Source: Verrucomicrobiales bacterium
GTDB lineage: Bacteria; Verrucomicrobiota; Verrucomicrobiia; Verrucomicrobiales; DEV007
Assembly: GCA_029213195.1 (NCBI GenBank)
Contig: JARGNI010000011.1
Location: 62,001-126,000, forward strand
DNA: 64,000 bases
Direction: 5' to 3'
The number at the start of each line of letters is the position of its first letter. Position 1 is the first letter of the stretch. The translations under genes and the position numbers were made by a program. The notes beneath the pieces were generated by a model, which was not told the origin of the DNA, did not search any database, and was given only the letters and a program-made list of their open reading frames with translations. Below are positions 3,129-20,116 of this stretch, one piece after another.

Positions 3129-4247
3129 ATGGCGAAAGAGAACCGAGACAGACTCATGATTCTTCAATTTGGAGCCGGAAACTTCCTGAGAGCCTTTGCC
3201 GATTTGATCATCGACGAACTCGATGCAGGCGAAGTCATTGTGGTTCAATCGACCGGGAGGGAGAGAGCCAATGCGATCAACGAGGCACGGGGCAAATTCC
3301 ACGTCGCGATCCAGGGATTCGATTCAGGCGAGATCGTCAACGAGACCGTCGAGGTGGACTCCATTTCCCACGCCCTGCACGCCGGTAGCCAGTGGGATGA
3401 GGTTCTTGATACGGGCAGACGGCCTGATCTCTCAATGATCCTGTCCAACACCACGGAGGCAGGCCTTGTCCTCGATCCCGCCGATAAAGCCCCGGAAAAC
3501 GATGCCCCAGCTTCCTTTCCGGCCAAGCTGCTCGCGGTCCTTTCCGCCCGATACGAGGCAGGCCATCCCGCACCATGGATCGCACCTTGCGAGCTCGTCG
3601 AATCCAACGGGGATCTTCTGAGAGATCTCGTCCTGGAGCAGGCCGAAACCTGGAATCTTTCCGATGGGTTGAAAGCCTGGCTTCAAAAGGAGTGCCGCTG
3701 GGTCAACACCCTCGTCGACCGCATCGTTCCCGGCCCGCCCAAAGAACACCCTCTCCTCGGCAAAGATCCGCTGCTTCTCAGCGCGGAGCCGTTTGTCTTC
3801 TGGGCCGTGGAAACCGATGACGACGATTTCCCTCTCATTCAACATCCTGCCGTGGTCGCTTCGGCGGATATCACTCCCTTCGCCCTTCGGAAGGTTCGCA
3901 TCCTCAACGGGGCTCATTCCGCTCTCGTGAGTCGCGCCGAAGGAACCGGCATTGCGACCGTTCGCGAATGCCTGGAGGATCCTGAGTTGAGTTCCTGGCT
4001 CGAAAGCCTCCTCTTTGATGAAATCGTTCCCGTCCTCGAAGGGCGTTGTGATGACCCGGAAGGATTTGCGCGAGCCACGCTCGATCGGTTTCGCAATCCC
4101 TTCCTCGAACACAAGCTCTCATCGATTGCCCTGAACCACGAAGCCAAGGTGGCGGTCCGCCTGAAACCGACCTTGGAGGAATACCGCGAGAAATTTGGGA
4201 CGGAGCCTCCTTTGCTATCCACGCTGTTTCGTGGCGACGGCCGCTAG
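3129..4247 (+). CDS. uxaB: Tagaturonate/fructuronate reductase-like (mannitol dehydrogenase family)
   Basis: A 372-residue cytoplasmic protein of the polyol-specific long-chain dehydrogenase family. The N-terminus has the Rossmann segment LQFGAGNFLRAF, very like UxaB, and the catalytic K-x4-N-x2-H arrangement is visible in KVRILNGAH. The family reduces D-tagaturonate (or D-fructuronate) to the aldonate with NADH in hexuronate catabolism. ATG at 3129 was chosen, with a weak AAGG upstream, because it gives the usual short N-terminus; ATGs at 3045, 3111 and 3156 are alternatives. At about 372 residues it is shorter than the E. coli enzyme. No uxaA, uxaC or kdgK partner is in the window, so the pathway context is inferred from the uronate-rich polysaccharide setting. 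Confidence 0.78.
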   Translation: MAKENRDRLMILQFGAGNFLRAFADLIIDELDAGEVIVVQSTGRERANAINEARGKFHVAIQGFDSGEIVNETVEVDSISHALHAGSQWDEVLDTGRRPDLSMILSNTTEAGLVLDPADKAPENDAPASFPAKLLAVLSARYEAGHPAPWIAPCELVESNGDLLRDLVLEQAETWNLSDGLKAWLQKECRWVNTLVDRIVPGPPKEHPLLGKDPLLLSAEPFVFWAVETDDDDFPLIQHPAVVASADITPFALRKVRILNGAHSALVSRAEGTGIATVRECLEDPELSSWLESLLFDEIVPVLEGRCDDPEGFARATLDRFRNPFLEHKLSSIALNHEAKVAVRLKPTLEEYREKFGTEPPLLSTLFRGDGR

Positions 4248-4262
4248 AAACTGTCCTTTCGG

Positions 4263-6440
4263 CTACCGGGCTTGCATCACCCGGGTCCACATTTCTCCAT
4301 CCCGGGCAAACGACTCCGTTCGTAGCCCGGGGCCGCCCCCCCACTCTGCGCCTGGCATTCCCACCAGGGAAGCTTCGTCCCATTCGCCGAGCAGCTCGAT
4401 CACCGCGGATTCATCGGCAAGCTCGAGAACACTTTCTACCGGTCCAAATTCCAGCTCCCGCACCCGCATCACCCCGTCGCGAATCACGACCCGCGCTTCG
4501 CCGTCATCTCCGCCGATCCGCAGCTTCTCGACATCCACTGATCCACCGCTTTCGATCGTCAGGGTGGCAAGGTCATGCACCATTTCGAGACGCTCGGCGG
4601 TCACGGTCCCGCCGTTCCTCACAATCAGTTCCGATACGGTGTCCGGTCCGCGAGAGCCATACTGAGCCATGCGGATGAGGCCGTGGCTCGACTCCCAGGT
4701 GCCACCGTCGACGATGAGACGGCTGGCGGCATTGTTGCGCCCGATGAATACCCGTCCGCGGGTCAGGAGTTTCCCCTCGACGATCATTTCAGCGACTCCG
4801 CCCTCGTTATGCCCCAGAAGCAATTCACCCTGACCAGATCTTTCCAGGATGCCGTCGGGCAGAATCCGCATCCGCGCCCGGCCGCGATGATAACCCAGCC
4901 AGAGGGTCTGCTTGAGCGCGACACGTCTCGCCAGCCGCAGCTCTTCCGCATCGACGACCCGGACCTCGTCGCGGGCACCGTCGGGAGTCCTGTCCTCCTG
5001 CCAGTTCTTCTTGTTTCGCCAGTCGCCGGATGGTCCGGTCCAGACTGCAGTGGGAGAGGAAGCGCGTGGCCTCGTCGTCAGGGTCAGGAAGCAAGCATCG
5101 GCAAAATGTCCTTCGAATTCGTCGGTCGTGTCGTTGGTGTTGTCTTCAGAAGCATAAACCTGGGCGACGAGATAATCGGCATTGGGCGGTATCACGAAAT
5201 CACAGGAGAGAAGCTCCCAGGTAGCGGGATCGTCATCGCTGTTCACGGTGGTGCTCGTGCTGGCGAGTTGCTCGGAAAGGGGTTGGTTCTTGCGATCCCA
5301 GTAGGAATCCACCAGTTCGACCGAACCCTGGAAGGCAAACAGGGCGATACCGAATTTCCGATCAACCCGTGAGCTCCCCGAGACGCGGTTGACCTTTGCG
5401 GAAAACGCAGCCTCGACTCCCCCGCGATTGACTTCATCGGAGTAGAGAGTCAGATCGATCACTTGCCACAACTCCGAGGCCCCACCGTTCGGATCCTCCG
5501 GGGATGCGGTTGTGCCGAGGAATTGCAGCATCCGGTTCCCTTCCGTCGGCTCGATGACCGCACCCTGTTCGCTCCCGGACTTAACAGGGTAACGCCCGAT
5601 TTGCTGGTGCGCATCGCCTCCCCAGGTGAGATAGGTGGCGGGCATGCCTTTCACTACTTCCGTGTCCTTCTCAAATCCGGGATTTGCCAGGGAAACAGGC
5701 AATACGTAGGCGGGCATCGGAAACCGTTTTGAATCGGAGGTGCCGGTCGTTTTCGCAACCAGGTCCATCGATTCGGACTCCTGCAGTCGCACAGCCTTTG
5801 TCTTGCCTTCCTGTCGGATTTCCACCTCGCCTTCAAACACATGGGTCTCGACGTTATCCTCACTGACGGAGACTCCGAAGCGGGTGCCCAGGTCGATGAC
5901 CTCGCCTCGCGGTGTGACCACGGTGAACCCTTCGGCACCCTTGGGAACATCGGCCGCGAGCTTGCCATCGAAAAGCTCGAGACGAGTCGCATCCCGAAAC
6001 TGGAAGGAAGCAGGGGCCTCGATCACGATCTCGATTCCACTGTCCAGATGGATTTCGATGAGTTGGTCCCCGGAGAACTCATAGCGTTTCAGCTCGATCG
6101 CCTCGTCCGTGGTGGAAAAGATACCGAAGACGGGTGCAGGTTCGTTGCGCTCCACGATCAGGAAAGCCAAAACCACGACCGCTGCGGCAGCCATAGCGAT
6201 CCAAGGCCATCGGTTCGTGCGCTTCGATTGTTCCGGAAAGCTGACCAGCGGCGGAAGAGAATCCTGGGCTTCTTCCCAAGCAAAATGCCGGGTGATCAGA
6301 CCGTGCAGTCGGACTCGCGACCGGAACTCGCGCCGCAGCTCGGCATCGGACCGCAGCGCCTCGTCAAATGCGGCCGTCTCTTCGGGAGATAATGCACCAT
6401 CGAGGTAGCGGTCGATTATCTGGTGTGAGTCGTCCGTCAT
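4263..6440 (-). CDS. FecR-domain membrane protein with large extracytoplasmic C-terminal region
   Basis: A 725-residue protein encoded 4 bp after the sigma factor gene, so probably its anti-sigma or sensor partner. Residues 1-60 form an anti-sigma-like helical domain (DRYLDGALSPEETAAFDEAL). A single membrane helix lies at about 78-97. Residues about 120-230 are a FecR domain (FTVVTPRGEVIDLGTRFGV, then HVFEGEVEI). A sandwich-like region follows, including a galactose-binding-type stretch beginning LANPGFEKDTEV. The C-terminal 200 residues carry short repeated beta-helix units (GELLLGHNEGG, GRVFIGRNNAAS, SELIVRNGGTVTAERL), like autotransporter passenger repeats. ATG at 6440 fits the spacing after the sigma stop. 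Topology implies cytoplasmic sigma binding and periplasmic or outer-facing sensing. Its ligand is unknown. Confidence 0.82.
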   Translation of the reverse strand: MTDDSHQIIDRYLDGALSPEETAAFDEALRSDAELRREFRSRVRLHGLITRHFAWEEAQDSLPPLVSFPEQSKRTNRWPWIAMAAAAVVVLAFLIVERNEPAPVFGIFSTTDEAIELKRYEFSGDQLIEIHLDSGIEIVIEAPASFQFRDATRLELFDGKLAADVPKGAEGFTVVTPRGEVIDLGTRFGVSVSEDNVETHVFEGEVEIRQEGKTKAVRLQESESMDLVAKTTGTSDSKRFPMPAYVLPVSLANPGFEKDTEVVKGMPATYLTWGGDAHQQIGRYPVKSGSEQGAVIEPTEGNRMLQFLGTTASPEDPNGGASELWQVIDLTLYSDEVNRGGVEAAFSAKVNRVSGSSRVDRKFGIALFAFQGSVELVDSYWDRKNQPLSEQLASTSTTVNSDDDPATWELLSCDFVIPPNADYLVAQVYASEDNTNDTTDEFEGHFADACFLTLTTRPRASSPTAVWTGPSGDWRNKKNWQEDRTPDGARDEVRVVDAEELRLARRVALKQTLWLGYHRGRARMRILPDGILERSGQGELLLGHNEGGVAEMIVEGKLLTRGRVFIGRNNAASRLIVDGGTWESSHGLIRMAQYGSRGPDTVSELIVRNGGTVTAERLEMVHDLATLTIESGGSVDVEKLRIGGDDGEARVVIRDGVMRVRELEFGPVESVLELADESAVIELLGEWDEASLVGMPGAEWGGGPGLRTESFARDGEMWTRVMQAR

Positions 6441-6444
6441 TGAT

Positions 6445-6984
6445 CTAGAAATTCGCTCCCACCTTTTTCTGGATACAGAGTTTGAGTTCTTTCCTCGCCC
6501 GTGAAAGTCCGACATACGCTGCCTCGGGTTTCCACCCGACCTGGTCCGCCGCTGCACCCGGCTTGATCCCGTTGCGGTAAACTAGTTCGACCAGTTGCTT
6601 CAGTTTCGGGGAAAGGTGCGTGATGCAATCCGCGAGGGCGTGGCTGATCTTCTGTTCCATGACCTCATCGTTCGCAGAATCTGGATCGGAAGCTTCACGA
6701 GCGAGCAACTCCATCGTTTCTCCGCTCAACGCGAGCGGCTCCCGTTTCTTTTGCCGAAGGTATTCCAACACCTTGAAACGGGCGATCGCGAAGGCCCAAG
6801 CCTTGAAATTGGTTCCCTCCTCGTAGTCATGCGCCTTTGCGGTGACGGTGAGAAACGTATCCTGCACCATGTCCTCCGCCTCGCCGGGATGAGGCAGCAG
6901 CGAGAGCACGAAATATTTCACCTCCGCCCCGTATTGGACGAAGAGCTGCTGCACGTGCCGGGTGTGTTCGGAGTCCGAAGCCAT
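6445..6984 (-). CDS. ECF RNA polymerase sigma factor (Verrucomicrobium/Pirellula type)
   Basis: A 179-residue sigma-70 family protein of normal ECF length. Region 2 is clear (AEDMVQDTFLTVTAKAH, then FKAWAFAIARFKVLEYLR), and region 4 ends in a helix-turn-helix (LKQLVELVYRNG, AAADQVGWKPEAAYVGLSRA). It directs RNA polymerase to a specific promoter set. It is followed at 4 bp by the FecR gene, the standard sigma/anti-sigma arrangement. The motif CTAAGGTTC-N10-GTCATTCTT lies 37 nt upstream of the ATG and is repeated before two other genes, which suggests autoregulation and a small local regulon. Confidence 0.93.
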   Translation of the reverse strand: MASDSEHTRHVQQLFVQYGAEVKYFVLSLLPHPGEAEDMVQDTFLTVTAKAHDYEEGTNFKAWAFAIARFKVLEYLRQKKREPLALSGETMELLAREASDPDSANDEVMEQKISHALADCITHLSPKLKQLVELVYRNGIKPGAAADQVGWKPEAAYVGLSRARKELKLCIQKKVGANF

Positions 6985-6993
6985 GGTTCATCA

Positions 6994-7021
6994 AAGAATG
7001 ACACGGATTCGGGAACCTTAG
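6994..7021 (-). promoter_or_regulatory. Putative ECF promoter of the sigma factor gene
   Basis: Read on the minus strand: CTAAGGTTC (7021-7013), 10 nt, GTCATTCTT (7002-6994). The same two blocks with the same spacer precede the genes starting at 7110 and 10518. Taking CTAAGG as -35 and ATTCTT as -10 gives a 16-bp spacer, typical of ECF promoters, and a very short or absent leader before the ATG at 6984. Confidence 0.55.
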
Positions 7022-7079
7022 CGAAGAAAGTTGGGAATGGTGGGATCGGTAATTTTCTTGTATGGATCGCTAAGGTTCC
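7012..7079. repeat. 13-bp perfect inverted repeat in the divergent promoter region
   Basis: GGAACCTTAGCGA at 7012-7024 is repeated as its exact reverse complement TCGCTAAGGTTCC at 7067-7079. The arms contain the CTAAGGTTC blocks of the two divergent promoters, one for the sigma gene and one for the gene at 7110. The repeat is thus best explained as two promoter elements facing outward, not as a hairpin. Confidence 0.8.
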
Positions 7080-7097
7080 TCCTTTCTGGCCATCATT
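7070..7097 (+). promoter_or_regulatory. Putative ECF promoter of the ThuA/haem-binding gene
   Basis: CTAAGGTTC (7070-7078), 10 nt, GCCATCATT (7089-7097), placed 40 nt before the ATG at 7110. Block sequence and spacer match those before the sigma gene and the DUF1501 gene. Confidence 0.55.
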
Positions 7098-7109
7098 ATC
7101 AACAGCCGT

Positions 7110-10100
7110 ATGATTCCCCTTTTCCTGAGACTCCTCCCAACCCTTCTCCTCGTTGGCACTCTTACTTGCGCCAAAGCGAACGAACCACTGCGCGCACTCA
7201 TCGTCGACGGCCGGAACAATCACGACTGGCGGTCCACGACGGACCACCTTCGGGCTACCCTCGAAGCGACAGGACGATTCGAGGTCGAGGTGTCGACCGC
7301 ACCGCAGAAACGGTCTCCAAAAGTGCCCCGGCGAGTGCAACGCCCCGAAGATGAAGCGGCCCTGCAGGAGGCGAAGCAGCTCTTCACCGAACGGGAAGCC
7401 GCAGCGAAGGCCAAGCTGGCGGAACGCTGGACACAGTGGCGGCCGGACTTTGCCTCCGCCGATGTCGTGATCCTCAATTACAATGGCGATAACTGGCCAC
7501 CCCATGTCGCGGAGGGATTTATCGAATTTGTCCGCAACGGAGGTGGCACGGTTCTCATCCACGGAGCGAACAATGCCTTCCGCAACTGGCCGGAGTTCAA
7601 CGAAATGATCGGCCTGGGCTGGCGTCCCGCTCCGATCGGCCGGGCGATCAAGATCAATCCGGAATCGGGCGAGGCCTTTGTCGCCAAGGACGCGGATCTG
7701 CCGAACAAGGGCAATTCCAGTCACGGCTCAAAGCATCCCTTCCAGGTCACGGTGCGGGCGTCGGATCACCCCGTCATGCGTGGCCTGCCGCCGGTGTGGA
7801 TGCATGCCATCGACGAGCTCTATCACAACATGCGCGGCCCGGCGAAAGATCTCACCGTGCTGAGCAGTGCCTGGTCCGATCCGGAACAGCGCGGCACCGG
7901 ACTGCACGAGCCACTCACCTGGGAGGTCGCCTTCGGCAAAGGACGTGTCATCGTCACCAGCATGGGGCATCTCTGGCCCGGCGGGATGGAGCGTGGTGAG
8001 CAGGACTCGCTGCGTTGCGTCGGATTCCAGACTGTCTTTGCCCGCTCCTGCGAATACGTCGCCACCGGCGAGGTGACGCTACCGATTCCGGAAGACTTCC
8101 CCGGACCGGATGAAGTCAGCACCGTGGCCCCGCACGCGGTCGCCTGGCCCGGGAATCAACCAAAGCCTGCCGGCGATCTGACTTCGATGCGCTCCAAAAA
8201 GGAGGCCGATCTCTACAGCATGCTCACCCCCGAGGAGGAACTCGCGACCTTCGAACTCGCCCCCGGCTACGTCGCCGAGCTGTTCGCCGCCGAACCGATG
8301 GTCCAGGAGCCGGTGCTCACGGTCTGGGACGCCGATGGCGCGATGTATGTCGCCGAGATGCGCAGCTACATGCAGGACGCTGCCGGCACCGGCACCAAGA
8401 CCCTGCGCAACGGTCGGGTCAAAAAACTGGTCGACACCGATGGCGATGGACGAGCCGATCAAGCGACCATTTTCATCGACAACCTCAACCTGCCGCGGAT
8501 GATCCTGCCCCTCAGCGATGGCTGGATCGCCGTCCGGGAAACCGACACCATGGACGTGGTCGCCTACCGGGACAACGATGGGGACGGCGTCGCCGATGAA
8601 AACAAAATGCTCTACAAGCGCGGCCCCTACAGTCGCAACAGCCCGGAAAAATCGGTCGAGCACCAGGACTCGGGTCTGATGTGGAACATCGATAACCACA
8701 TCTATCTCACCTACAACATGGAGCGTTACCGCTTCACCACCGGCGAGTGGGTTGCCGAGAAACAGCCCGGTCACTGGACCCAGTGGGGCCTCACGCACGA
8801 TGATGCCGGCGATCTCTATTGGAGCACTAATTCCGATCCGCTCATCCAGGCCTACATCCACCCCCGCTACTGGGAGATCCCGCGACGGTTCGCTTCGAAC
8901 GTGCCGCGCATTCCCGTCGTCCTGCCGGCACACTACGACCCGGGTTTCATGGCTGCTCACAGCAGTTGCCTGCTCAACGACCGGGGCGGCTCGGCGGCAG
9001 CCGTGCGGAGTTTCACCTCTGCCTGCGGCCAGAGCATCTATCGATCCGACAAATTTCCCGCCGATGGCCGGGGCAATTATTTCGTCTGCGATCCCACGAT
9101 CCACGTCGTTCGGCGTGCTCGCATCTCGCGCGACGGGGCGATGGTTCGCTTAACCAAAGCGGAACCAGATGGAATGGAATTCCTGCGAAGTTCCGATATC
9201 AACAGCCGCTTCATCAACACCGCCGAGGGTCCGGACGGCTGCCTCTATGTTACCGACATGTATCGGGGCATCATCCAGGACGCTCCCTGGCTCAATCCCG
9301 GCAGTCGCGAAAACATCATCGCCAACGGCCTCGACGATAACAACCAGCACGGCCGCATCTGGCGTATCCGTCATCGGGATTTTCAGCCGCGCAGCAAACA
9401 AGCCATGCCTCCGATGAGCACTGAACCCACCATCGCCCTGCTGCGCCATCTCGAAAGCCCCTCCGGCTGGTGGCGGGATACGGCCCAGCGCGAGATCATC
9501 CTGCGAGAAGACCGCGAAAGCGTGGAGCCCCACTTGCGGGCCATAGCCCGGTTCGCCGACAGCCCACACGCCCGATTCCACGCTTTGTGGACGCTCGAAG
9601 GCATGGCGGCAACGGATCTCGATCTCCTCGCCCACATGGCCAAAGACAACGAAGCCAGGATCCGCCGGGCCGCGGTCCAGGTCGCCGAACCGCGGTTGGG
9701 AGAAGGCGAATTCTTCGATGCCCTGGCTCGCACCCTCGCGAACGACAGCGATCCTCAAGTCGCCCAGCAATTGATTCTCTCTCTCGGCCTCGTTCGGGAT
9801 CATCCCGATGGCGTCGAGCTGATCCAGCAGATCGCGCGTCGACAGGCCACTGTTCCGGGGGTGCAACTGGCAACGACCCTTTCGCTCTGGGGTATGAAAG
9901 ACCTGCCACTGGTGAAAGAGATCCTCGAAGGCAATGCCTTCGATCCCGCCACCACCGTCGCCTCGAAGAACATGCTCGGAAACTGGGACCGGGGGATCCA
10001 GTTTCCCGACGACATGTCCAACGACGAGAAGAAGCGCATCACCTCTGGAGAAACCCAGTATTTCGCCAGTTGCATTACCTGTCACGGAGCGGACGGCAAA

Positions 10101-10436
10101 GGAATCGCGATCGCTGGAAGTGAAATGATGCTGGCACCGTCGCTGGTCGACTCGGCTCGCGTCAAAGGCGATCCCAATAAGTTGATCGCAGTTCTACTCC
10201 ATGGCCTCAAGGGACCGATCGACGGGAAATCCTACCAAGCCGGTTTCATGGCGCCGGCCCACGCCCTCGGGATCACCCGCGAAGATCGCTTGTCGGAACT
10301 GATCACCTACCTGCGCTTTGTCCATGGCGACGGCGCCTCAAGCGTCAGCCATGACGAGGTGAAGAATGTGAAGAAGCTGCATGGCGATCGGAAGACGCCG
10401 TGGGCGGATGACGAGTTGAAGGCGGTTCGGGAATGA
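7110..10436 (+). CDS. Secreted ThuA / PVC dehydrogenase / HEAT / cytochrome c protein
   Basis: An 1108-residue exported mosaic protein. A signal peptide ending around CAKANE is followed by a ThuA-like domain (about 25-320; ALIVDGRNNHDW, VLIHGANNAF). Residues about 375-770 form the membrane-bound dehydrogenase-type beta-propeller of planctomycetes and verrucomicrobia (GYVAELFAAEPMVQEP, RVKKLVDTDGDGRAD). HEAT-like repeats occupy about 790-960. A C-terminal c-type haem site, CITCH, lies at 988-992 followed by GADGKGI. Such proteins are thought to oxidise sugars or related compounds and pass electrons to a covalently bound haem outside the cytoplasm; the substrate is not known. It opens a plus-strand series of exported proteins and carries the ECF-type promoter motif. 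Confidence 0.9.
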   Translation: MIPLFLRLLPTLLLVGTLTCAKANEPLRALIVDGRNNHDWRSTTDHLRATLEATGRFEVEVSTAPQKRSPKVPRRVQRPEDEAALQEAKQLFTEREAAAKAKLAERWTQWRPDFASADVVILNYNGDNWPPHVAEGFIEFVRNGGGTVLIHGANNAFRNWPEFNEMIGLGWRPAPIGRAIKINPESGEAFVAKDADLPNKGNSSHGSKHPFQVTVRASDHPVMRGLPPVWMHAIDELYHNMRGPAKDLTVLSSAWSDPEQRGTGLHEPLTWEVAFGKGRVIVTSMGHLWPGGMERGEQDSLRCVGFQTVFARSCEYVATGEVTLPIPEDFPGPDEVSTVAPHAVAWPGNQPKPAGDLTSMRSKKEADLYSMLTPEEELATFELAPGYVAELFAAEPMVQEPVLTVWDADGAMYVAEMRSYMQDAAGTGTKTLRNGRVKKLVDTDGDGRADQATIFIDNLNLPRMILPLSDGWIAVRETDTMDVVAYRDNDGDGVADENKMLYKRGPYSRNSPEKSVEHQDSGLMWNIDNHIYLTYNMERYRFTTGEWVAEKQPGHWTQWGLTHDDAGDLYWSTNSDPLIQAYIHPRYWEIPRRFASNVPRIPVVLPAHYDPGFMAAHSSCLLNDRGGSAAAVRSFTSACGQSIYRSDKFPADGRGNYFVCDPTIHVVRRARISRDGAMVRLTKAEPDGMEFLRSSDINSRFINTAEGPDGCLYVTDMYRGIIQDAPWLNPGSRENIIANGLDDNNQHGRIWRIRHRDFQPRSKQAMPPMSTEPTIALLRHLESPSGWWRDTAQREIILREDRESVEPHLRAIARFADSPHARFHALWTLEGMAATDLDLLAHMAKDNEARIRRAAVQVAEPRLGEGEFFDALARTLANDSDPQVAQQLILSLGLVRDHPDGVELIQQIARRQATVPGVQLATTLSLWGMKDLPLVKEILEGNAFDPATTVASKNMLGNWDRGIQFPDDMSNDEKKRITSGETQYFASCITCHGADGKGIAIAGSEMMLAPSLVDSARVKGDPNKLIAVLLHGLKGPIDGKSYQAGFMAPAHALGITREDRLSELITYLRFVHGDGASSVSHDEVKNVKKLHGDRKTPWADDELKAVRE

Positions 10437-10485
10437 CGGGATCGCCAATTTTTCCGAGGGACTCAAAAAAGTCTTCTTTTCTCCC

Positions 10486-10513
10486 CTAAGGTTCTTTCTT
10501 CCATGCCATTATT
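10486..10513 (+). promoter_or_regulatory. Putative ECF promoter of the DUF1501 gene
   Basis: CTAAGGTTC (10486-10494), 10 nt, GCCATTATT (10505-10513). It repeats the arrangement seen before 6984 and 7110. An ATG at 10503 lies inside the motif, so translation more likely starts at the in-frame ATG at 10518, 32 nt after the motif begins. A second shared patch, GGGATCG-N2-AATTTT, lies further upstream here and before 7110. Confidence 0.5.
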
Positions 10514-10517
10514 GGGC

Positions 10518-11858
10518 ATGAAAAGACGAACCAGCGGTTGTTCCGGATTTCAGCAAGCTCATTTCTCCCGTCGTGATGCGATGCGAATCGGCTCGCTGGG
10601 AGGGGTTGGGCTCACCCTCGGCCAGATGCTTCAGCTCGAGGCGGCGCAGAAGGATTTCAAGACAGTGGAGGGGCCGGCAAAAAGTGTCATCCAGATCCGG
10701 CTCGGTGGTGGAGTGGCTGCCCAGGAAAGTTGGAACCCGAAGCCGGAATCGCCACTGGAATACCGCGGTCCGTTTGGTGTCAGCAAGACTCCCATCCCGG
10801 GAATCGTGCTCGGCGAGCTGATGCCCGAGACGGCGAAGATCGCGGACAAGCTGACGGTGGTGCGCTCGGTTGTCGGGAAGATTCCCGATCACGGGCAGGC
10901 CACGTATCACGTCATGCGCGGCTACCCCATGACGCCGGCGATCAAGCACCCGACGATCGGCACGGTGGTCAATCACGAGTTCCAGCCTCGCTCGGCGCTT
11001 CCGACTTACATCGCGATCGGTAATGCCAAGGATGAGACCGGCTATCTCGGTGCGCAATACGGACCCTTCACGACCGGAGCCGACCCGGCCTCGGATAGCA
11101 GCTTCCAGATTCGTGATCTCACCCTCCCGGGTGGTCTCGATGTCGCTGCCTTCGAGTCCCGCAAGCAGATCCGCGACGCCATCAACAACGAGTTCCGCAA
11201 GCTCGAAACGAGCAAAGCTCCGCTCGACACGATGGATGCCTACTACCAGAAGGCCTACGACATGATCAGCTCGGAGGAAGTGAAAGACGCCTTCGATCTT
11301 TCCAAGGAGCCAGAGAAACTGAAGACCGAGTACGGCAAGAACCAGTTCGAACGCCAGGGCTCGCAGGCCGGCATGCGTATGCTCCTCGCCCGCCGACTCG
11401 TCGAAGCCGGAGTGCGCTTTGTCTCCCTGAACTACGGCGAGTGGGATCACCACTCCGGCATCAAGACCGCCTTCGAACTCAACATGCCTGCGTTCGACAA
11501 GGCCTTCTCGACGCTGATTCGGGATCTCGACGACCGCGGCCTGCTCGACAATACCCTCGTCTGGGTCGTCTCCGAAATGGGCCGCACGCCAAAGATCAAC
11601 CAGGTCGCTGGCCGCGACCACTGGTCCCGCGTCTTCTCGCTCGCCATGGCCGGCGGTGGGCTCAAGCAGGGCGCCTTCTACGGAGACGCCGACGCCACTT
11701 CATCCGAGGTCGCCCACGACGGTGTTCCTCTCGCCGATCTGCACAGCACGCTCTATCACCTGATGGGCATCAATTCGGACAAGGAACTGATGGCCTCGGG
11801 CTCTCGCCCGATGGAAATCATCGACGGCGGGAAAGTGGTCGAGGACATCCTGGCATGA
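10518..11858 (+). CDS. DUF1501 domain protein with Tat-type signal
   Basis: A 446-residue DUF1501 family protein, distantly sulfatase/alkaline-phosphatase-like in fold. The N-terminus carries a twin-arginine export motif (FSRRDAMRIGSLGGVGLTLG). Typical family segments are KSVIQIRLGGGVAAQESW, YPMTPAIKHPTIGTVVNHE, FVSLNYGEWDHHSG and WVVSEMGRTPKIN. The biochemical function of DUF1501 is not established; the genes are usually neighbours of DUF1549/DUF1553 genes, as here. Start 10518 is preferred to 10503 because the latter lies within the promoter motif. The stop overlaps the next ATG in an ATGA, implying coupled translation with the PPC protein. Confidence 0.88.
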   Translation: MKRRTSGCSGFQQAHFSRRDAMRIGSLGGVGLTLGQMLQLEAAQKDFKTVEGPAKSVIQIRLGGGVAAQESWNPKPESPLEYRGPFGVSKTPIPGIVLGELMPETAKIADKLTVVRSVVGKIPDHGQATYHVMRGYPMTPAIKHPTIGTVVNHEFQPRSALPTYIAIGNAKDETGYLGAQYGPFTTGADPASDSSFQIRDLTLPGGLDVAAFESRKQIRDAINNEFRKLETSKAPLDTMDAYYQKAYDMISSEEVKDAFDLSKEPEKLKTEYGKNQFERQGSQAGMRMLLARRLVEAGVRFVSLNYGEWDHHSGIKTAFELNMPAFDKAFSTLIRDLDDRGLLDNTLVWVVSEMGRTPKINQVAGRDHWSRVFSLAMAGGGLKQGAFYGDADATSSEVAHDGVPLADLHSTLYHLMGINSDKELMASGSRPMEIIDGGKVVEDILA

Positions 11859-14377
11859 ACCGTTGCATCATTCCCTCCCTCCTCCTCGCCTCTCTCCTCC
11901 TCCCCTTCGCAGAAGCGCAGGAAGAGCTGGAGTTCTGCACCTTTCCCTATTCCTGTCCCATCGCGGGACGGATCAATCCCCAGGTCGGCGAACAGGGCAG
12001 CACCACCAAGATCACGCTCATTGGCGGTCGACTGCAAGAGATCGAGGAATTCTTCTTCTATCGACCGGGTATCAAGGTCGTCGACCACCGACCGCTCGAT
12101 GTCATTCCGAGCGACATGCGTGGCGACGACCGCAAGATGCCCAAGGGCACAGCGGTGGAACTCACCCTGGAGATCGCCGACGACTGCCCCCTCGGCGAAC
12201 ACTTCATGCGCCTGCGCACGAAGGAGGCGCTCTCCGAAATGGTGTCCTTCTGGGTCTCCCCATTTCCCTGCGTGCCGGAGAAAGACTGGGCGCACGATTC
12301 CGCCGACAAGGGCAACGGAACTTTCGTTCGGGCGCAACCGGTCGAACTGGGAACGACCGTCTACGGCTACCACCCCTCCTATTCCACCATGGACCACGAC
12401 TTCTATGCCGTGGAGATGGAAAAGGGCGAGAACCTGACCGTGGAAGTCTGGTCGGCTTGCCTCGGATTCGACTTTCACGACGGCATCACCGACTGCGCCA
12501 TCACGATCTACGACCCCGATCAGGAGAAGATTGCCTACGTCGACGACACCTCCCTGCGCGACATGGACCCCATCGTCGGCCTGAAGGCGGAAAAGTCCGG
12601 GACCTATTACGTGAACATCCACCAGAACATGGATTTCGAGGGCGCACTCCGACACTACGCTGCGCACTTCAGCAATGAGAAGCGCCCGATGATCACTTAC
12701 CCGCTCGGCGGCCCGGCGGGATCCGAACTCGAACTCACCCTCATCGACGCCGACGGATCGGAGAGCAAGGCCAGGCATGCGCTTCCCAAGGAGCCCGGCG
12801 CCTTCGACAAATCTGTTATCGATTTCTTTGCCGCCCCGACGGCGATTCCCAACCGCCTCCAGGTGGCCAAGTTCGAAAACGTCCTCGAGGACGGCAAGGA
12901 GCACTTCCAACCGGAGGAGGCCCAGGTTTATCAAGGAGAGCTTCCCATCGCCTTCAACGGTCGCATTCTGCATGAGGGCAAGACCGACTGGTTCCGCTTC
13001 AGCGCCAGGAAGGGCGAGCGATACCGCGTGCGCACCTACGCCGCCACCCTCGGCTCCTCGCTCGATGCCCGGCTCATGATTCGCCCCGCCGCAGGCACGG
13101 AGAGTCGCATCGACATCAAGGCGGATGATTCCCGCTGGATCGACCACGACTGGCAGGGCGCCGACAAGACCTCCATCCTCAAGGACCGCATGGATCCCAT
13201 CACGATTTTCGAACCCGATGCCGACGGTGACTACCTCCTCGGCATCGAGGATTCTCAACGCCTCTTCGGACCCGACTACGTCTACCGCGTCGAGATCGAG
13301 CCCGTGGTGAATCGCGCCTTCATCTACTTTCCCAAGGATTATCGCGAGAGCCCGCACAAACGGGACCGCCTCGTCGTCCACCGCGGCAACACGGTGGAGC
13401 ACACCCTCGCCATCATTTCCGGTCTCGGAAATAACTATCGCGGCGGCATGGAAATCTACGCCGAAGGTTTACCCAAGGGCGTCACTTTCGAGTGTCCTCC
13501 ACTGAAACCGGGCCAAACCCTGACCCAGGCCACCCTGACCGCCACCGCTGACGCCGAGCCGTGGTCCGATCTCATCGAACTGAAGCTTCGTCCCACCGAG
13601 GAAGGCGCCGACTTCCGGGGAAGCTTCGTGCACAACGTCCCTTCCACGAGCCGACGAGGTGGCTACAACGTCGTCCACAATCTCACTCGCCGTTGCGCCG
13701 CCGCTGTGGTCGAGGAAGCGCCCCTCCGCATCTCGGTCAAGCAGCCGGACATCGCCCTCGCCAAGAGCGCCGTCCTCGACCTCGAAGTCGAGATCGAGCG
13801 CAGCCAGGGTTACGAAGGCGGCGTCTCCGTCTATGCCGCCTGGAGGCCACCCAATGTCGTGACGCCCCCGCCTCTCATCATCCCACCCGGTGAGACGAAG
13901 GCAGTCTATCAACTCAAGGCCAACCACAATGTGACGCCGGGGCGTTATCCTGTCACCCTGACCGCCCATGAGGAAAAGGGGGGAAACCGTGGCTGGGGCA
14001 CCGGTTTCCACTACGTCGCCTCTCCTCCCATCGACCTGGAGATTTCCGACCCCTATCTTAATCTCACCTTCGATCGTACCGCCATCGAGCGTCAGACCGA
14101 AACGAAACTGGTCGCCTCCATCGACACGATCAAACCCCTGCCCGGCGAGGCCACCGCTACTCTGATCCGTCTGCCAACGGGAATCGAGTTGGTGAAGCCC
14201 GTGACCATTCGTCCGGGTGACAAGATGGTCAGTTTCCCGATTCGGGCAACGAAGGATGCGTTGACCGGTCAGTATCAGCAAATCGCCTGCCAAATCAAGA
14301 TTCGGGAGGGCGATCAGGAAATCGTGCAGGAATCCGGCAACGGCGTGCTGCGAATTGATGAGGAGCGTTCCCGATGA
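11855..14377 (+). CDS. Secreted PPC-domain protein
   Basis: An 840-residue exported protein beginning with a signal peptide that ends at EAQEE. It contains an IPT/TIG-like N-terminal domain and at least two pre-peptidase C-terminal (PPC) beta-sandwiches, one near 150-250 (HDFYAVEMEKGENLTVEVW) and one near 370-480 (DWFRFSARKGERYRVRTYA). Further Ig-like segments run to the C-terminus. No catalytic motif was seen. Proteins of this kind are regular partners of DUF1501 and DUF1549/DUF1553 proteins in planctomycetes and verrucomicrobia and may act as extracellular scaffolds. Both ends overlap the neighbours by ATGA. Translation in this frame could be extended upstream antisense-free over the DUF1501 gene, but the signal peptide fixes the start at 11855. 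Confidence 0.87.
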   Translation: MNRCIIPSLLLASLLLPFAEAQEELEFCTFPYSCPIAGRINPQVGEQGSTTKITLIGGRLQEIEEFFFYRPGIKVVDHRPLDVIPSDMRGDDRKMPKGTAVELTLEIADDCPLGEHFMRLRTKEALSEMVSFWVSPFPCVPEKDWAHDSADKGNGTFVRAQPVELGTTVYGYHPSYSTMDHDFYAVEMEKGENLTVEVWSACLGFDFHDGITDCAITIYDPDQEKIAYVDDTSLRDMDPIVGLKAEKSGTYYVNIHQNMDFEGALRHYAAHFSNEKRPMITYPLGGPAGSELELTLIDADGSESKARHALPKEPGAFDKSVIDFFAAPTAIPNRLQVAKFENVLEDGKEHFQPEEAQVYQGELPIAFNGRILHEGKTDWFRFSARKGERYRVRTYAATLGSSLDARLMIRPAAGTESRIDIKADDSRWIDHDWQGADKTSILKDRMDPITIFEPDADGDYLLGIEDSQRLFGPDYVYRVEIEPVVNRAFIYFPKDYRESPHKRDRLVVHRGNTVEHTLAIISGLGNNYRGGMEIYAEGLPKGVTFECPPLKPGQTLTQATLTATADAEPWSDLIELKLRPTEEGADFRGSFVHNVPSTSRRGGYNVVHNLTRRCAAAVVEEAPLRISVKQPDIALAKSAVLDLEVEIERSQGYEGGVSVYAAWRPPNVVTPPPLIIPPGETKAVYQLKANHNVTPGRYPVTLTAHEEKGGNRGWGTGFHYVASPPIDLEISDPYLNLTFDRTAIERQTETKLVASIDTIKPLPGEATATLIRLPTGIELVKPVTIRPGDKMVSFPIRATKDALTGQYQQIACQIKIREGDQEIVQESGNGVLRIDEERSR

Positions 14378-15819
14378 ATCGATTTCTACTGTTTACCCTG
14401 TGTCTGTTGTCTTCCTCTGGCGCTTTCGCCGCGAAGCCTAAAATCGTGCTGGTACTGGTGGACGATCTGGGCTGGGCCGATCTCGGCTGCCAGGGCTCGG
14501 ACTTCTACGAAACGCCGCACATCGACAGCCTGGCGAAGGAAGGGGTGCGCTTCACCGACGGATATGCTGCCTGTGCAGTGTGTTCGCCATCGCGAGCGGC
14601 AGTGATGACCGGTCGCTACCCGCATCGAACCGGCATCACGAACTGGATTCGTTCACGCGCTCAGGGGGCCAAGGTTCCAAAAGACCGGAAGAATCCCTGT
14701 TGGAAGCCAAAGGAGCAGTGGCAGGGAAAAGGCAAGTTGATCTGCCCGCCGAACGGTCTCTGGCTGGAGAGCACAGAAGTTACCCTTGCAGAAGTGTTGA
14801 AGCCGGAAGGCTACGTCAGCTGCTACATTGGCAAGTGGCACCTTGGAACAGATGACTGGTATCCGACCGAGCAGGGCTTCGACTACAATGTAGGTGGCTG
14901 CGACTTTGGGGAGCCGCCGTCCTACTTTGATCCCTACAACAAGCCCAAGTCGTTTCACCCGATAACGCGTGATGGCATTCCCGGGTTGCCGGGGCGCAAG
15001 CCGGGGCAGTACCTGACGGATCGCGAAGCGGAGGAAGCCGATGCCTTCATTCGCAAGCACAAGGACCAGCCCTTCTTCCTGATGCTCGCCAACTACGCCG
15101 TCCACACGCCGATCCAATCCAGGGAGGACCTCGCGGCCAAGTATCGGGCCAAGAAGAAGACAGGGATCCACCGCAACCCCGTCTACGCCGCCATGATCGA
15201 GAGCGTCGATGATGCGGTGGGGGTCGTCGTCAACACCTTGGAAGAGCTGAACCTCACCAACAACACGCTGATCATCTTTACGTCCGACAATGGCGGTGTC
15301 AAGGGACTCACCAACAACCTGCTGCGTGACGGCAAGGGCTATCCCTACGAGGGCGGCGTCCGCGTCCCGTTCATCGTCAAGTGGCCGGGCGTGGCGAAGG
15401 CAGGCTCCGAAGTCTCTGAGCCGGTCATCAGCATGGACATTCTGCCGACTATCGCTGCGGCTGCCGGTGCCAAGCTCCCGGACGTCGAACTCGACGGCAA
15501 GGATCTCAAACCCCTGCTAGCCGGTAGCGGCGAGATCGAGCGTGATACCCTTTACTGGCACTACCCGCACTACCGCCAAGACCGCGGACCTTACAGCACC
15601 ATCCGTCATGGCGATTGGAAACTGGTCAAGTGGTTCGAAGGCGGCCGGTCTCTGTTCCACCTCAAAGACGATCTCGGTGAGGAGAATGATTTGGCCAAGT
15701 CCATGTCAGAGAAGGTCGAGGAACTTGAGGGGATGTTAATGACCCACCTGAGCAGCACAACGGATCTGATTCCCATCCCGAATCCCAATTACAAGCCAGA
15801 AGCACCAGCGGAGAGGTGA
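14374..15819 (+). CDS. Type I sulfatase (arylsulfatase A-like)
   Basis: A 481-residue exported sulfatase. The signal peptide ends at AFAAK, followed by VLVDDLGWADLGC for metal binding. The formylglycine motif is CSPSR at residues 70-74, followed by the usual MTGRYPHRTGITNW stretch. The IGKWHLG segment and SDNGG complete the active site. The architecture is full length. It starts by ATGA overlap with the PPC gene and is embedded between DUF1501/PPC and DUF1549/DUF1553 genes, which suggests desulfation is coupled to whatever this surface complex does. The substrate is unknown. Confidence 0.95.
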   Translation: MNRFLLFTLCLLSSSGAFAAKPKIVLVLVDDLGWADLGCQGSDFYETPHIDSLAKEGVRFTDGYAACAVCSPSRAAVMTGRYPHRTGITNWIRSRAQGAKVPKDRKNPCWKPKEQWQGKGKLICPPNGLWLESTEVTLAEVLKPEGYVSCYIGKWHLGTDDWYPTEQGFDYNVGGCDFGEPPSYFDPYNKPKSFHPITRDGIPGLPGRKPGQYLTDREAEEADAFIRKHKDQPFFLMLANYAVHTPIQSREDLAAKYRAKKKTGIHRNPVYAAMIESVDDAVGVVVNTLEELNLTNNTLIIFTSDNGGVKGLTNNLLRDGKGYPYEGGVRVPFIVKWPGVAKAGSEVSEPVISMDILPTIAAAAGAKLPDVELDGKDLKPLLAGSGEIERDTLYWHYPHYRQDRGPYSTIRHGDWKLVKWFEGGRSLFHLKDDLGEENDLAKSMSEKVEELEGMLMTHLSSTTDLIPIPNPNYKPEAPAER

Positions 15820-15896
15820 CTCCTCCGCGAGCAGAAAACCGCTTTCCTCAGATTCGCAATGGAAATCACTACCGTCGAAACCGATGCGCCAGAATC

Positions 15897-18113
15897 ATGA
15901 TCAGATTTTTCCGAACACTTAAGCTTTCCCTTCTTCTCTCCTTCGCGACCGCGAGTTGGGCGCAAGGCAAGGACGAACCCGTCAGTTTCGAGAACGATGT
16001 GCTTCCCATCTTCATGCGCGCCGGCTGCAATGCCGGTGACTGTCATGGCGCCGCCCGCGGAAAAGACGGCTTCATGCTTTCCCTTTTCGGCTACGATCCC
16101 GAGGGCGACTACTACCGCCTGATGGAGGAATACATCGGCCGCCGCGTGAATCTCGGTGCTCCGGAGAAAAGCCTCCTTCTCCAGAAGTCGATCGGAGAAG
16201 TGCACCACACAGGTGGTGAGCTCTTCACCAAGGACTCCGAGTCCTACGAAATCATCCACCGCTGGATCGCCCAGGGTGCCCCACGGGACGATGAAAGCAC
16301 TCCCGAGGCCACCGGCATTCGCGTGGAACCCGCGGTCATCGAATTCGATGCCCCCAAGGCGAAGAAACCCACCAAGGTGATCGCCACCTACTCCGATGGT
16401 TCGGAGCGCGACGTGACCCGCTGGAGCCTGTTCCTGTCGAGTAACGACGGAGTGGTCGGCATTGACGACGACGGAATGGTCAGCGCCACGCGTGCGGGAG
16501 GTGCCCACGTCTTTGCCCGCTTCAATCGGTTCACCCAAGGTTCCGAAGTGTTTGTCCTCCCGGGCGACGAAAAGTTCGAATGGTCCCCGCCCAAGGCCAA
16601 CAACTACATCGACGAGCTCGTCTACGACAAGCTGGAGAAGCTGCGCATCCATCCCTCCGAGCTCAGTTCCGATGAAGATTTCCTCCGCCGGGTGACCATC
16701 GACCTGACAGGTCTCCTTCCCACGCCCACCGAATACGAAGACTTTATCAGCTCCGAGGATCCAAACAAGCGCGCCAAGGTCATCGAAGACTTGTTGCAAC
16801 GCGACGACTTCGCCCACCTCTGGGCCGCGAAGTGGGGCGAATGGGTCCGCATCAAGGGCGACACCAACCCGGGTTCAGGCAATGCCATGAAGGCCGCCTG
16901 GGGATTCTATTACTGGATCCTCGACGAGATCGTCAACGATCGCCCCATTGACGAACTCCTCTACGCCATGCTCACCGGCACCGGTTCGAACCTGCGCCAG
17001 CCGCCGAGCAACTTCTACACGATGATCCCCTCCGCCGGGCAGATCAATCCGAGCATCCTCAGCCAGGACGTCGCTCAACTGACCATGGGCATCCGCATGC
17101 AGTGCGCCGAGTGCCACAACCACCCCTTTGACCGCTGGACGATGGACGACTACTACGGCTGGACCTCCTTCTTCACCGGCATCGAGCGCAAACGCGGACG
17201 CGAAGCCCGCGAGATGCTCATCTCGGTCAATGTGGAGGCCGCCCCGGCCAAGCACCTGCTCGACGATCGTCCCATGCCCCCCCGCTTCCTCGGCGGAGAG
17301 GCTCCCGACACCACCGACAAGGACCCACGCCAGTTGATGGCCGCCTGGCTCACCGCCGAGGACAACACCCTTTTCCGCCGCCACATGGCCAACCGGGTGT
17401 GGGAGCACTTCTTCGGTCGTGGCATCGTCGAACCGATCGACGATGTCCGCATCAGCAACCCGGCCAGCAACGAGCCCCTCCTCGAAGAACTGGGACGCCG
17501 CTTTGCCGAGGACCACGACTACCGGCTTCGCGACCTCGTCCGCGACATCTGCGATTCGACCACCTACCAGCTTTCGGCCGGCACCAATGCCTCCAACGAG
17601 GACGACGAGGAGTTCTTCTCCCACGCTGCCCTGCGTCGCCCGCGTGCCGACGTGCTCCTCGACTGCATCAACCAGGCGCTCGACAACACACCGACCTTCC
17701 GACGTTCCACCAAAACCCGAGCCATCGATCTCTTCCAGGGAGGGGCGACCACCAACGAGGCCTATTTCTTCTCCACCTTCGGGCAATCGAAGCGCGCCAG
17801 CATCTGTGCCTGCGAGACCAGCACCGATGCCCAACTCGCCCAGTCGCTCCACCTCATCAATGGCGAAACCATCCAGAAACCCCTGCGCGCTTCGGCATTG
17901 GTCAATCAACTCACCGGATCGCACCCCGACCAACCCGAGCTCATCATCGAGCAACTTTTCATTCGCCTGCTCACGCGCAAACCAAGCGCAGACGAACTGA
18001 AAGTCATCCTTTCGAACTTCCCCGAGAAGACAGACCAGAAGTCCCTCAAGATCTTCTACGACGGCGTGCTCTGGGGCCTGCTCAATTCCAGCGAGTTTCT
18101 CTACAACCACTAG
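15897..18113 (+). CDS. DUF1549/DUF1553 protein with N-terminal haem-type motif and Ig-like domain
   Basis: A 738-residue exported protein. After the signal peptide (to about residue 22) comes a cytochrome-like domain with GCNAGDCHG at 43-51, a C-x4-C-H variant typical of this family. Residues about 145-215 form a bacterial Ig-like (BIG2) domain (DGSERDVTRWSLF). DUF1549 (PSCyt2) follows at about 230-430 with the MQCAECHNHPFDRW motif, then DUF1553 (PSD1) to the end (FRRHMANRVWEHFFGRGIV). A GTG at 15816 would extend the frame, but ATG at 15897 restores a clean signal peptide. The role is unproven; such proteins are linked by context to complex-carbohydrate use. Confidence 0.9.
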   Translation: MIRFFRTLKLSLLLSFATASWAQGKDEPVSFENDVLPIFMRAGCNAGDCHGAARGKDGFMLSLFGYDPEGDYYRLMEEYIGRRVNLGAPEKSLLLQKSIGEVHHTGGELFTKDSESYEIIHRWIAQGAPRDDESTPEATGIRVEPAVIEFDAPKAKKPTKVIATYSDGSERDVTRWSLFLSSNDGVVGIDDDGMVSATRAGGAHVFARFNRFTQGSEVFVLPGDEKFEWSPPKANNYIDELVYDKLEKLRIHPSELSSDEDFLRRVTIDLTGLLPTPTEYEDFISSEDPNKRAKVIEDLLQRDDFAHLWAAKWGEWVRIKGDTNPGSGNAMKAAWGFYYWILDEIVNDRPIDELLYAMLTGTGSNLRQPPSNFYTMIPSAGQINPSILSQDVAQLTMGIRMQCAECHNHPFDRWTMDDYYGWTSFFTGIERKRGREAREMLISVNVEAAPAKHLLDDRPMPPRFLGGEAPDTTDKDPRQLMAAWLTAEDNTLFRRHMANRVWEHFFGRGIVEPIDDVRISNPASNEPLLEELGRRFAEDHDYRLRDLVRDICDSTTYQLSAGTNASNEDDEEFFSHAALRRPRADVLLDCINQALDNTPTFRRSTKTRAIDLFQGGATTNEAYFFSTFGQSKRASICACETSTDAQLAQSLHLINGETIQKPLRASALVNQLTGSHPDQPELIIEQLFIRLLTRKPSADELKVILSNFPEKTDQKSLKIFYDGVLWGLLNSSEFLYNH

Positions 18114-18121
18114 ACGATTTC

Positions 18122-20116
18122 ATGAGGCACTTTTTCATCCTGGTCGGCCTTGTCGCGGCAGGCGAAGCCGTCTGCGCCGAATCTCCCAACTTCGAAGACG
18201 ACGTCCTCCCGATCTTCAAGGAGCACTGCAACGGCTGTCACAATCCTGACAAGTTCAAAGCGGATCTCGACCTGACGACCTACGCGGGTGTCTTGAAAGG
18301 CAGTTCCGGCGGCGAGGTCGTCAAGGCCGGCGTGCCGGACACAAGCTGGATCTACGAAACAATCACCCATGCGGAAGACGTCGAGCCGATGCCTCCCAAG
18401 AAACCGAAGATCGCAGATGCGCAGATCGAGGTCATTCACCAGTGGATCGCGGGCGGCTTGCTGGAAGCAGAAGGCGGAAAGTCGAAGCTGCGAAATCTTT
18501 CCTTCGACTTGACCGCCGGCTCGATGGAGCGGCCAGAAGATCCTGCCACGCCCACCAATCTACCCGACGTCCCTGTTTCCGTTACCAACACGGCCCCGCC
18601 GATTCTCGCTCTCGCCAGCAGCCCGTGGACGAACTTGATTGCCGCCAGTGGTCACGAACAGATCCTGCTTTTCGGAGAGCAAACCCCCGCCATCGAAGCG
18701 GACGATTTCGAGCCGGTGGCGAAGGATTCGTTGTTCTTGCGGGAGGATTTCGAAGAGGAAGAGAACGCCATGGAGGGTGTCGTTGGCAATGCCTGGAACG
18801 CAAACGGCCACCGACCACTCGAAGAACTCCCCCGCGACTTCCTGAACCAGAACGACGCGTTCAGTTTCACCGCATGGATTCAGCCGGACGCCGACATGAA
18901 AAGCGAAACCATCTTTGGCCGCGGCAGTTTCGCGATCTTCCTCGAGAAAGCGCGCAACGGTTGGCGCTTGCGTTCAGTAACGCGGGCGAAAGACAACCGG
19001 ATCGGCTACTTTGGCCGACAAGGTGAATTTCCCGGCGGGAGCTGGCAACACATCGCGGTCACCTGTGACGGCAAGGAATGGGTCTTCTATTACGGCGGCA
19101 AGGAAATCTCGCGCCAGAAGATTCCGGAAGATCAACCCGGGTTCCTCGAATACGATCACCCGTTCTTCATCGGGGGGGACGGCGTTCACGATGACCGGCA
19201 ATACCGCGGTGGACTCGATGATGTGAGAATCTACAAGCGCGCCCTATCCCCCGAAGAAGTGGCGACGATCCACAGCAACGCAACCACTTCCTTGGGCCAC
19301 ATCGGCACCCTGCCGTTTCCCGAAGGCGATGTTCACGACCTGCGCTTCTCGAGAAACGGTGAGTTGTTAGTCGCAGCTGGTGGACGCGGCGCTTACTCCG
19401 GAAAAGTAGCCGTTTTCGATGTGAGCACCGGCGAACGCAAAGCAACGATTGCCGACGAGCAGGACATCGTCCTCTCCGCCGACATCAGTGCTGATCACCG
19501 CTTCGTCGCGATTGGCACCCCTGCGAAAAAGGTAAAGATCTTTTCCGCCGTGAACGGCGAGCTCCTCCATACGATGGACAAGCACACCGACTGGGTGACC
19601 AAAGTTCGCTTCAGCCCCGACGGCAAAAAGCTGGCAACCGGCGACCGCAACGGCGGGATTCATGTCTGGGAAAGCGAGAACGCAGGTATTGTCTACACGT
19701 TAGACGAACACAAGGTTCGCATCACTGGATTGAGCTGGCGGGCAGACGGACAACTGCTCGCCTCAGCGGCCGAGGACGGAAAGTTTGTCCTCTGGGATAT
19801 GAAGGACGGCTGGCCGACCCGGACCGCGTCCCCCCACTCAGTCAAGCAGGAGCCATCCCGCTACACTCGCCACACCGGAATTCTCGACATTCAATTCGCT
19901 CGTGATGGCAGGTTCCTCACGGTCGGCAGGGACCGATCTGTCCGCTGGTGGCAAACCGACGGGAATGGAATTGGCCAGGTGGAAGATCTCGCCTCCATCC
20001 CGACGCAGGTAGCCTTCGGTTGGGACGGAAAAACCGTCGTTACAGGCGACTTGAAGGGAGAACTGAAACTCTGGGATTCCGAGTCCCGCTCCCTGATCCA
20101 GGAGCTCGTTCCGTGA
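18122..20116 (+). CDS. PSCyt1 cytochrome / LamG / WD40 protein
   Basis: A 664-residue exported protein starting 8 bp after the previous stop. The signal peptide spans about residues 1-19. A PSCyt1 domain has the haem motif CNGCH at 36-40. The first WD40 blade begins at about 160 (PPILALASSPWTNLIAASGH), then is interrupted at about 200-385 by a complete LamG domain (WQHIAVTCDGKEWVFYYGGK, YRGGLDDVRIYKRALS). The propeller resumes at about 392 with GTLPFPEGDVHDLRFSRNGE and runs to the C-terminus. Related proteins normally pass straight from blade to blade at this point. The frame is open upstream over the preceding gene, but the ATG at 18122 gives the signal peptide. Likely an electron-carrying, glycan-binding surface protein. 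Confidence 0.88.
   Translation: MRHFFILVGLVAAGEAVCAESPNFEDDVLPIFKEHCNGCHNPDKFKADLDLTTYAGVLKGSSGGEVVKAGVPDTSWIYETITHAEDVEPMPPKKPKIADAQIEVIHQWIAGGLLEAEGGKSKLRNLSFDLTAGSMERPEDPATPTNLPDVPVSVTNTAPPILALASSPWTNLIAASGHEQILLFGEQTPAIEADDFEPVAKDSLFLREDFEEEENAMEGVVGNAWNANGHRPLEELPRDFLNQNDAFSFTAWIQPDADMKSETIFGRGSFAIFLEKARNGWRLRSVTRAKDNRIGYFGRQGEFPGGSWQHIAVTCDGKEWVFYYGGKEISRQKIPEDQPGFLEYDHPFFIGGDGVHDDRQYRGGLDDVRIYKRALSPEEVATIHSNATTSLGHIGTLPFPEGDVHDLRFSRNGELLVAAGGRGAYSGKVAVFDVSTGERKATIADEQDIVLSADISADHRFVAIGTPAKKVKIFSAVNGELLHTMDKHTDWVTKVRFSPDGKKLATGDRNGGIHVWESENAGIVYTLDEHKVRITGLSWRADGQLLASAAEDGKFVLWDMKDGWPTRTASPHSVKQEPSRYTRHTGILDIQFARDGRFLTVGRDRSVRWWQTDGNGIGQVEDLASIPTQVAFGWDGKTVVTGDLKGELKLWDSESRSLIQELVP

Follow-up and report, generated by a model that had tools for sequence, protein, structure and literature searches.

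Genes and features of the locus

The analysed window is a stretch of 64,000 nt from a Verrucomicrobiales bacterium (contig JARGNI010000011.1). The features at the locus under study are collected in Table 1. The sigma protein scored 132.3 bits against TIGR02989 (Sig-70_gvs1; cut-off 124.55) and belongs to that family. It also matched Sigma70_r2, and Sigma70_r4_2 fell just under its cut-off (23.9 against 25.7 bits); its length agrees with the ECF build of regions 2 and 4 only, about 180 aa. The genome encodes a large ECF array, with 37 TIGR02989 matches, 12 of them over the cut-off. The FecR gene begins about 4 nt beyond the sigma stop codon, a spacing that suggests co-transcription. Its FecR domain was matched over the cut-off, the N-terminus contains a zf-HC2/RskA-like stretch with a match below the cut-off, a hydrophobic stretch lies at about residues 117-135 of P0002, and the long C-terminal part has no Pfam match. 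The protein has the form of a membrane anti-sigma factor and would inhibit the sigma factor. The FecR side is flanked by a mannitol dehydrogenase-like gene (3045-4247, plus strand) and a second sulfatase gene (1264-2727, minus strand).

The genes from 10518 onward form a tight series (DUF1501, PPC, sulfatase, PSCyt2/PSD1, PSCyt1/Laminin_G_3/WD40) with several 4-nt overlaps. They are predicted to form an operon, of which the PSCyt1 gene is the probable last member. Planctomycetes and verrucomicrobia have many genes for DUF1501, DUF1549/1553 (PSCyt2/PSD1), DUF7133 and their relatives, for which we know of no function. The PSCyt-encoding genes of Verrucomicrobia have been described as functionally uncharacterised and as frequent neighbours of sulfatase genes (PMC5615132).

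Table 1. Genes, putative promoters and inverted repeat at the locus (window coordinates).
Feature	Position	Strand	Details
FecR-domain putative anti-sigma factor	4263..6440	-	probable start ATG 6440; ORF open from 6557
ECF sigma factor, TIGR02989, 179 aa	6445..6984	-	profile match
Putative sigma promoter	6993..7022	-	pattern match 6994-7021; -35 GCTAAGGTTC 7022-7013, -10 region GTCATTCTT
Inverted repeat, 13 bp	7012..7079		made by two outward-facing putative -35 elements between divergent genes
Putative promoter of divergent ThuA/DUF7133/cytochrome c gene	7069..7097	+	pattern match 7070-7097; GCTAAGGTTC ... GCCATCATT
ThuA + DUF7133 (PVC-type haem-binding) + HEAT + cytochrome c protein, 1108 aa	7110..10436	+	domain matches
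Putative promoter of DUF1501 operon	10485..10513	+	pattern match 10486-10513; CCTAAGGTTC ... GCCATTATT
DUF1501 protein	10518..11858	+	domain match
PPC-domain protein, second gene of predicted operon	11441..14377	+	the first GTG of the ORF lies upstream of the true start
Sulfatase	14374..15819	+	4-nt overlap with PPC gene before
PSCyt2/PSD1 (DUF1549/DUF1553) protein	15816..18113	+	4-nt overlap with sulfatase gene before
PSCyt1 + Laminin_G_3 + WD40 protein	17399..20116	+	ORF; actual start must be near 18110

A two-part element before three genes

The initial annotation had reported the pattern CTAAGGTTC-N10-G[CT]CAT[CT][AC]TT before the sigma, ThuA/haem and DUF1501 genes. A pattern search bore this out, with three exact matches in the window, at these genes, and none beyond. 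The distances to the ATG were correctly given as 37 nt (sigma), 40 nt (ThuA) and 32 nt (DUF1501), with 10518 as the start of the DUF1501 gene. ATG 10503 was rejected as a start because it sits inside the promoter spacer; the DUF1501 ortholog in locus L067 starts with MKR.. at the equivalent place after the motif. The sigma and ThuA copies lie, as described, within one 13-bp inverted repeat, which is perfect (GGAACCTTAGCGA 7012-7024 / TCGCTAAGGTTCC 7067-7079). No copy was present at the mannitol dehydrogenase-like gene or the sulfatase gene on the FecR side.

The genome-wide tests were pattern searches. When up to two mismatches were allowed, CTAAGGTTC-N10-GYCATNNTT matched solely the same three sites in the organism's own genome (5.9 Mb), where 0.003 exact pattern matches are expected from base composition. 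With 3 mismatches allowed, none of the dinucleotide shuffles of the window got 4 matches (mean 0.61). The loosened motif showed no excess across the genome, with 39 matches against 106 for the reversed control, and therefore there is no hidden wider set in this genome. The concern that the motif might be as common at random positions as upstream of genes was not borne out. At sixteen paralog sigma loci of the genome, a search for repeated two-part elements returned nothing beyond self matches and chance words; the arrangement is thus specific to this sigma factor rather than general for the ECF loci of the genome. Since the pattern was derived from these three copies, independent evidence comes from other genomes, in which it is conserved.

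Counted from the C of CAT, the start codon lies 11 nt away for the DUF1501 gene, 16 nt for the sigma gene (ATG at 6984) and 19 nt for the ThuA gene. A transcript start about 12 nt past this C would leave leaders of 0 to about 7 nt, and the transcripts of the window are probably leaderless or nearly so. The spacing in L074 resembles these near-absent leaders, unlike that in L157, where the sigma transcript would carry a leader of about 40 nt. Tracts rich in T or A stand before several GCTAAG elements (window 10445-10484, L157 upstream of 8916, L161 before the putative sigma promoter) and could be UP elements.

Conservation of the element in one sigma factor clade

The closest relatives of the sigma protein, from three genomes of the same genus, are 62, 61 and 50% identical to it (L065, L066 and L067). 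Directly upstream of their genes stand GCTAAGCTTTCTCTCCTGCTATCATATTC, GCTAAGATTCAGAGATACGGGCCATATTT and GCTAAGCTTTGAAAACAGGCTGTCATAAGTT, respectively, and the DUF1501 genes are preceded by GCTAAGCTTTGTGCATCCCGTGCATTTCTT in L065 and GCTAAGAATGCCTCCCTAGCATGCATATTTT in L067. More generally, orthologous sigma genes have GCTAAG-N16/17-CATnnT just upstream, as do their DUF1501, ThuA or divergent neighbours. The element occupies the same place before the sigma gene in L065, L066, L067, L071, L074, L157, L158, L161 and L163; GCTAAGGTT stands before the ThuA ortholog in L157 as well, and the DUF1501 orthologs of L065, L067 and L157 are likewise preceded by the motif. The comparison of homologous sigma/FecR loci proposed in the initial annotation thus found the motif kept before sigma, DUF1501 and ThuA orthologs. 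The exact pattern given there was slightly over-specified: its three copies stood, and the relatives keep (G)CTAAG, CATnnT and a spacer of 16/17 bp.

The core [GC]CTAAG-N16/17-[CT]AT matched ten times over the window and seven related loci, each time 27-58 nt ahead of the reading frame of a sigma, ThuA or DUF1501 gene, and nowhere else there. About three chance matches are expected in the window alone, and therefore the position of the matches is telling, not their number. The core was defined on some of its own test loci, except for eight further loci fetched once it was fixed; 4 of these 8 had the strict core before sigma. Overall, the strict core preceded the sigma gene in 10/16 clade members and in 0/33 sigma loci outside the clade (P = 1e-6). 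The loose form gave 14/16 against 1/33 (P = 2.5e-9), but it was composed with all upstream sequences in view, so that the strict figures are cleaner. Two clade members, L072 and L164, lacked even the loose motif.

In the sigma protein tree, the GCTAAG users fall in one clade with a support of 0.98, and many of them share the region 4.2 helix W-x-x-x-A-V-x-V-A-L-S-R-A-R. In neighbouring clades, whose helices differ, the upstream boxes are GTGAGAT, TTAACC or CCTAACC; promoter type tracks the region 4.2 helix as well as the position in the sigma tree. Another TIGR02989 clade, which has a paralog in the same genome as the window, has a different conserved two-part element immediately before its sigma genes, in which GTGAGAT comes first and a GGTAT(C)- or GTGTATAG-like block second (L006, L075, L078, L080, L082, L083, L085 and L086).

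The four bases after GCTAAG differed on average by 0.48 within loci and by 1.90 in shuffles across loci. None of 20000 shuffles agreed as well, and 1 of 20000 did so when the window was left out. The promoters of the G025 sigma factor read GCTAAGCTTT. This likeness within loci could arise from promoter copying rather than coevolution. We advance only tentatively the idea that the extended -35 (the bases after GCTAA) of each private promoter drifts with its clade sigma/FecR pair, giving small insulated planctomycete-cytochrome regulons with leaderless transcripts.

L067, L161, L162 and L163 likewise have an outward-facing pair between sigma and a divergent gene; these divergent genes differ, being DUF1501 genes or genes for proteins of no clear family. 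At more distant loci the targets are different proteins. Control of targets was judged from the window, two loci with a DUF1501 copy, these four divergent-pair loci and one genome with the full set, G279. G279 belongs to another family of the same phylum and has kept the ThuA, sigma, FecR, DUF1501, PPC and PSCyt genes. In it GCTAAGGTT-N13/14-CAT was found seven times, and all seven sites are intergenic. Five of them precede the ThuA, sigma, amidohydrolase and DUF1501 genes and a PSCyt1/PSD/DUF1588 gene on another contig, which suggests that the element may act on an unlinked gene too. The control GCTAAG[ACT]TT, with another base for the second G, lay inside genes at 6/6 inspected sites. This intergenic placement is the strongest indication of a functional, specific element. 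The sites L181:11044-11069 (plus strand) and L182:6263-6288 (minus strand) of this genome have GCTAAGGTT before a family-less 224-aa gene and in an intergenic place with no clear gene close by, respectively; they may mark further regulon members.

Proposed regulation and relation to known systems

A two-part motif shared by a sigma gene and its targets and kept in orthologs is the mark of an autoregulated ECF promoter, and such a motif was found here. We consider it very probable, judging from sequence comparison, that the sigma factor of the locus reads the three copies as promoters, which together form a private autoregulated regulon under the FecR-type anti-sigma factor. The best reading of the private promoter consensus is GCTAAGgTT / CATnnTT. 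RNA polymerase with the locus-encoded sigma factor would read all three promoters, with GCTAAGGTT as the -35 bound by sigma region 4, CAT[CT][AC]TT as the -10 bound by region 2 and a spacer of 16 bp. The FecR-type membrane protein would hold the sigma factor and thereby keep the three promoters off until a periplasmic signal frees it. The freed sigma factor would then amplify its own sigma-FecR operon and switch on the divergent ThuA/DUF7133/cytochrome c gene and the DUF1501-PPC-sulfatase-PSCyt2/PSD1-PSCyt1/WD40 operon. The ECF switch thus appears to activate its own genes together with two neighbouring gene blocks for exported haem, sulfatase and 'planctomycete cytochrome' proteins. Such a regulon would be local and private, the paralogous sigma factors of the genome having other upstream sequences. 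Cross-genome conservation, also at the loci fetched later, supports the earlier proposal that the sigma factor controls itself together with the ThuA/haem and DUF1501/sulfatase/PSCyt blocks.

The perfect inverted repeat would also suit a palindromic operator, with CTAAGGTTC bound by an ordinary activator or repressor near the promoters. However, the arms are 42 nt apart and each is part of a separate outward promoter, the DUF1501 gene has a single copy in one orientation only, and the second block, CATnnTT, stands at a fixed distance from the -35 block. The motif follows the sigma clade, and no regulator gene but the sigma/FecR pair was seen among the genes annotated at the locus. An operator is therefore improbable. 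The agreement of the three copies in the extended -35 might instead reflect recent duplication of an upstream segment that merely looks regulatory. This we regard as extremely unlikely, since the spacers and flanks are unlike among the three copies and the same genes keep the element where the sigma proteins share only 48-63% identity.

It could further be argued that the sigma factor reads the element but truly autoregulates only its own gene, the ThuA and DUF1501 copies being weak or dependent also on another sigma factor. Five loci (L066, L071, L074, L158 and L159) indeed show the motif at the sigma gene alone. In the window and in L157, however, the target copies are about as close to the consensus as the sigma copy is, and control of the sigma gene alone seems very unlikely.

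The regulon proposed here, read by the sigma factor of the locus, can be compared with known systems. ECF factors are usually autoregulated, classically with AAC in the -35 and CGT in the -10 (PMC8103513). The window promoters do not have this canonical form, having AAG in the -35 and CAT in the -10. Escherichia coli RpoE and Bacillus subtilis SigW resemble the window system in their two-part promoter with a central -35 AA and, as proposed here, in positive autoregulation with the cognate anti-sigma factor in the same operon (PMC8103513). They differ in the -35, GGAACTT for RpoE and ATTGAAACCTTT for SigW against GCTAAGGTT (AAG), and in the -10, CGT against CATnnTT; the leaders in the window also appear almost absent. 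The window sigma factor passes the same family cut-off as the TIGR02989 sigma factors of Rhodopirellula and Verrucomicrobium, but lies in one clade with a -35 of its own, whereas GTGAGAT, TTAACC or CCTAACC-like boxes are found in other clades. The Rhodopirellula baltica ECF factor RB10049 has been proposed to regulate the neighbouring PSCyt2/PSD1 gene RB10051 (Studholme et al., cited in PMC2754498). The part of PMC2754498 that was consulted describes no promoter element for this pair, whereas in the window a shared element was identified and is conserved. In the FecI/FecR iron-citrate system a FecR-domain membrane protein is likewise encoded with an ECF sigma factor. Unlike that system, the locus has no TonB-dependent receptor gene among its annotated genes, and FecI-like systems are listed among the exceptions to autoregulation (PMC8103513).

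A description of the motif was not found in the literature searched, which did not include the 2021 ECF reclassification. That work, by Casas-Pastor, reportedly lists predicted motifs by group, and the GCTAAG/CATnnT motif may well already be in it. The window system is of a known kind, an ECF sigma factor with a putative anti-sigma factor and with AAG replacing the textbook AAC, and its novelty is probably modest. The defined promoter would link one set of DUF1501/PSCyt/DUF7133 genes to one sensor pair; it predicts a regulon and directs the search for the inducing signal to the FecR protein. It would also add a -35 specificity, AAG after an A-tract, to the sequence code that relates ECF region 4 to its promoters.
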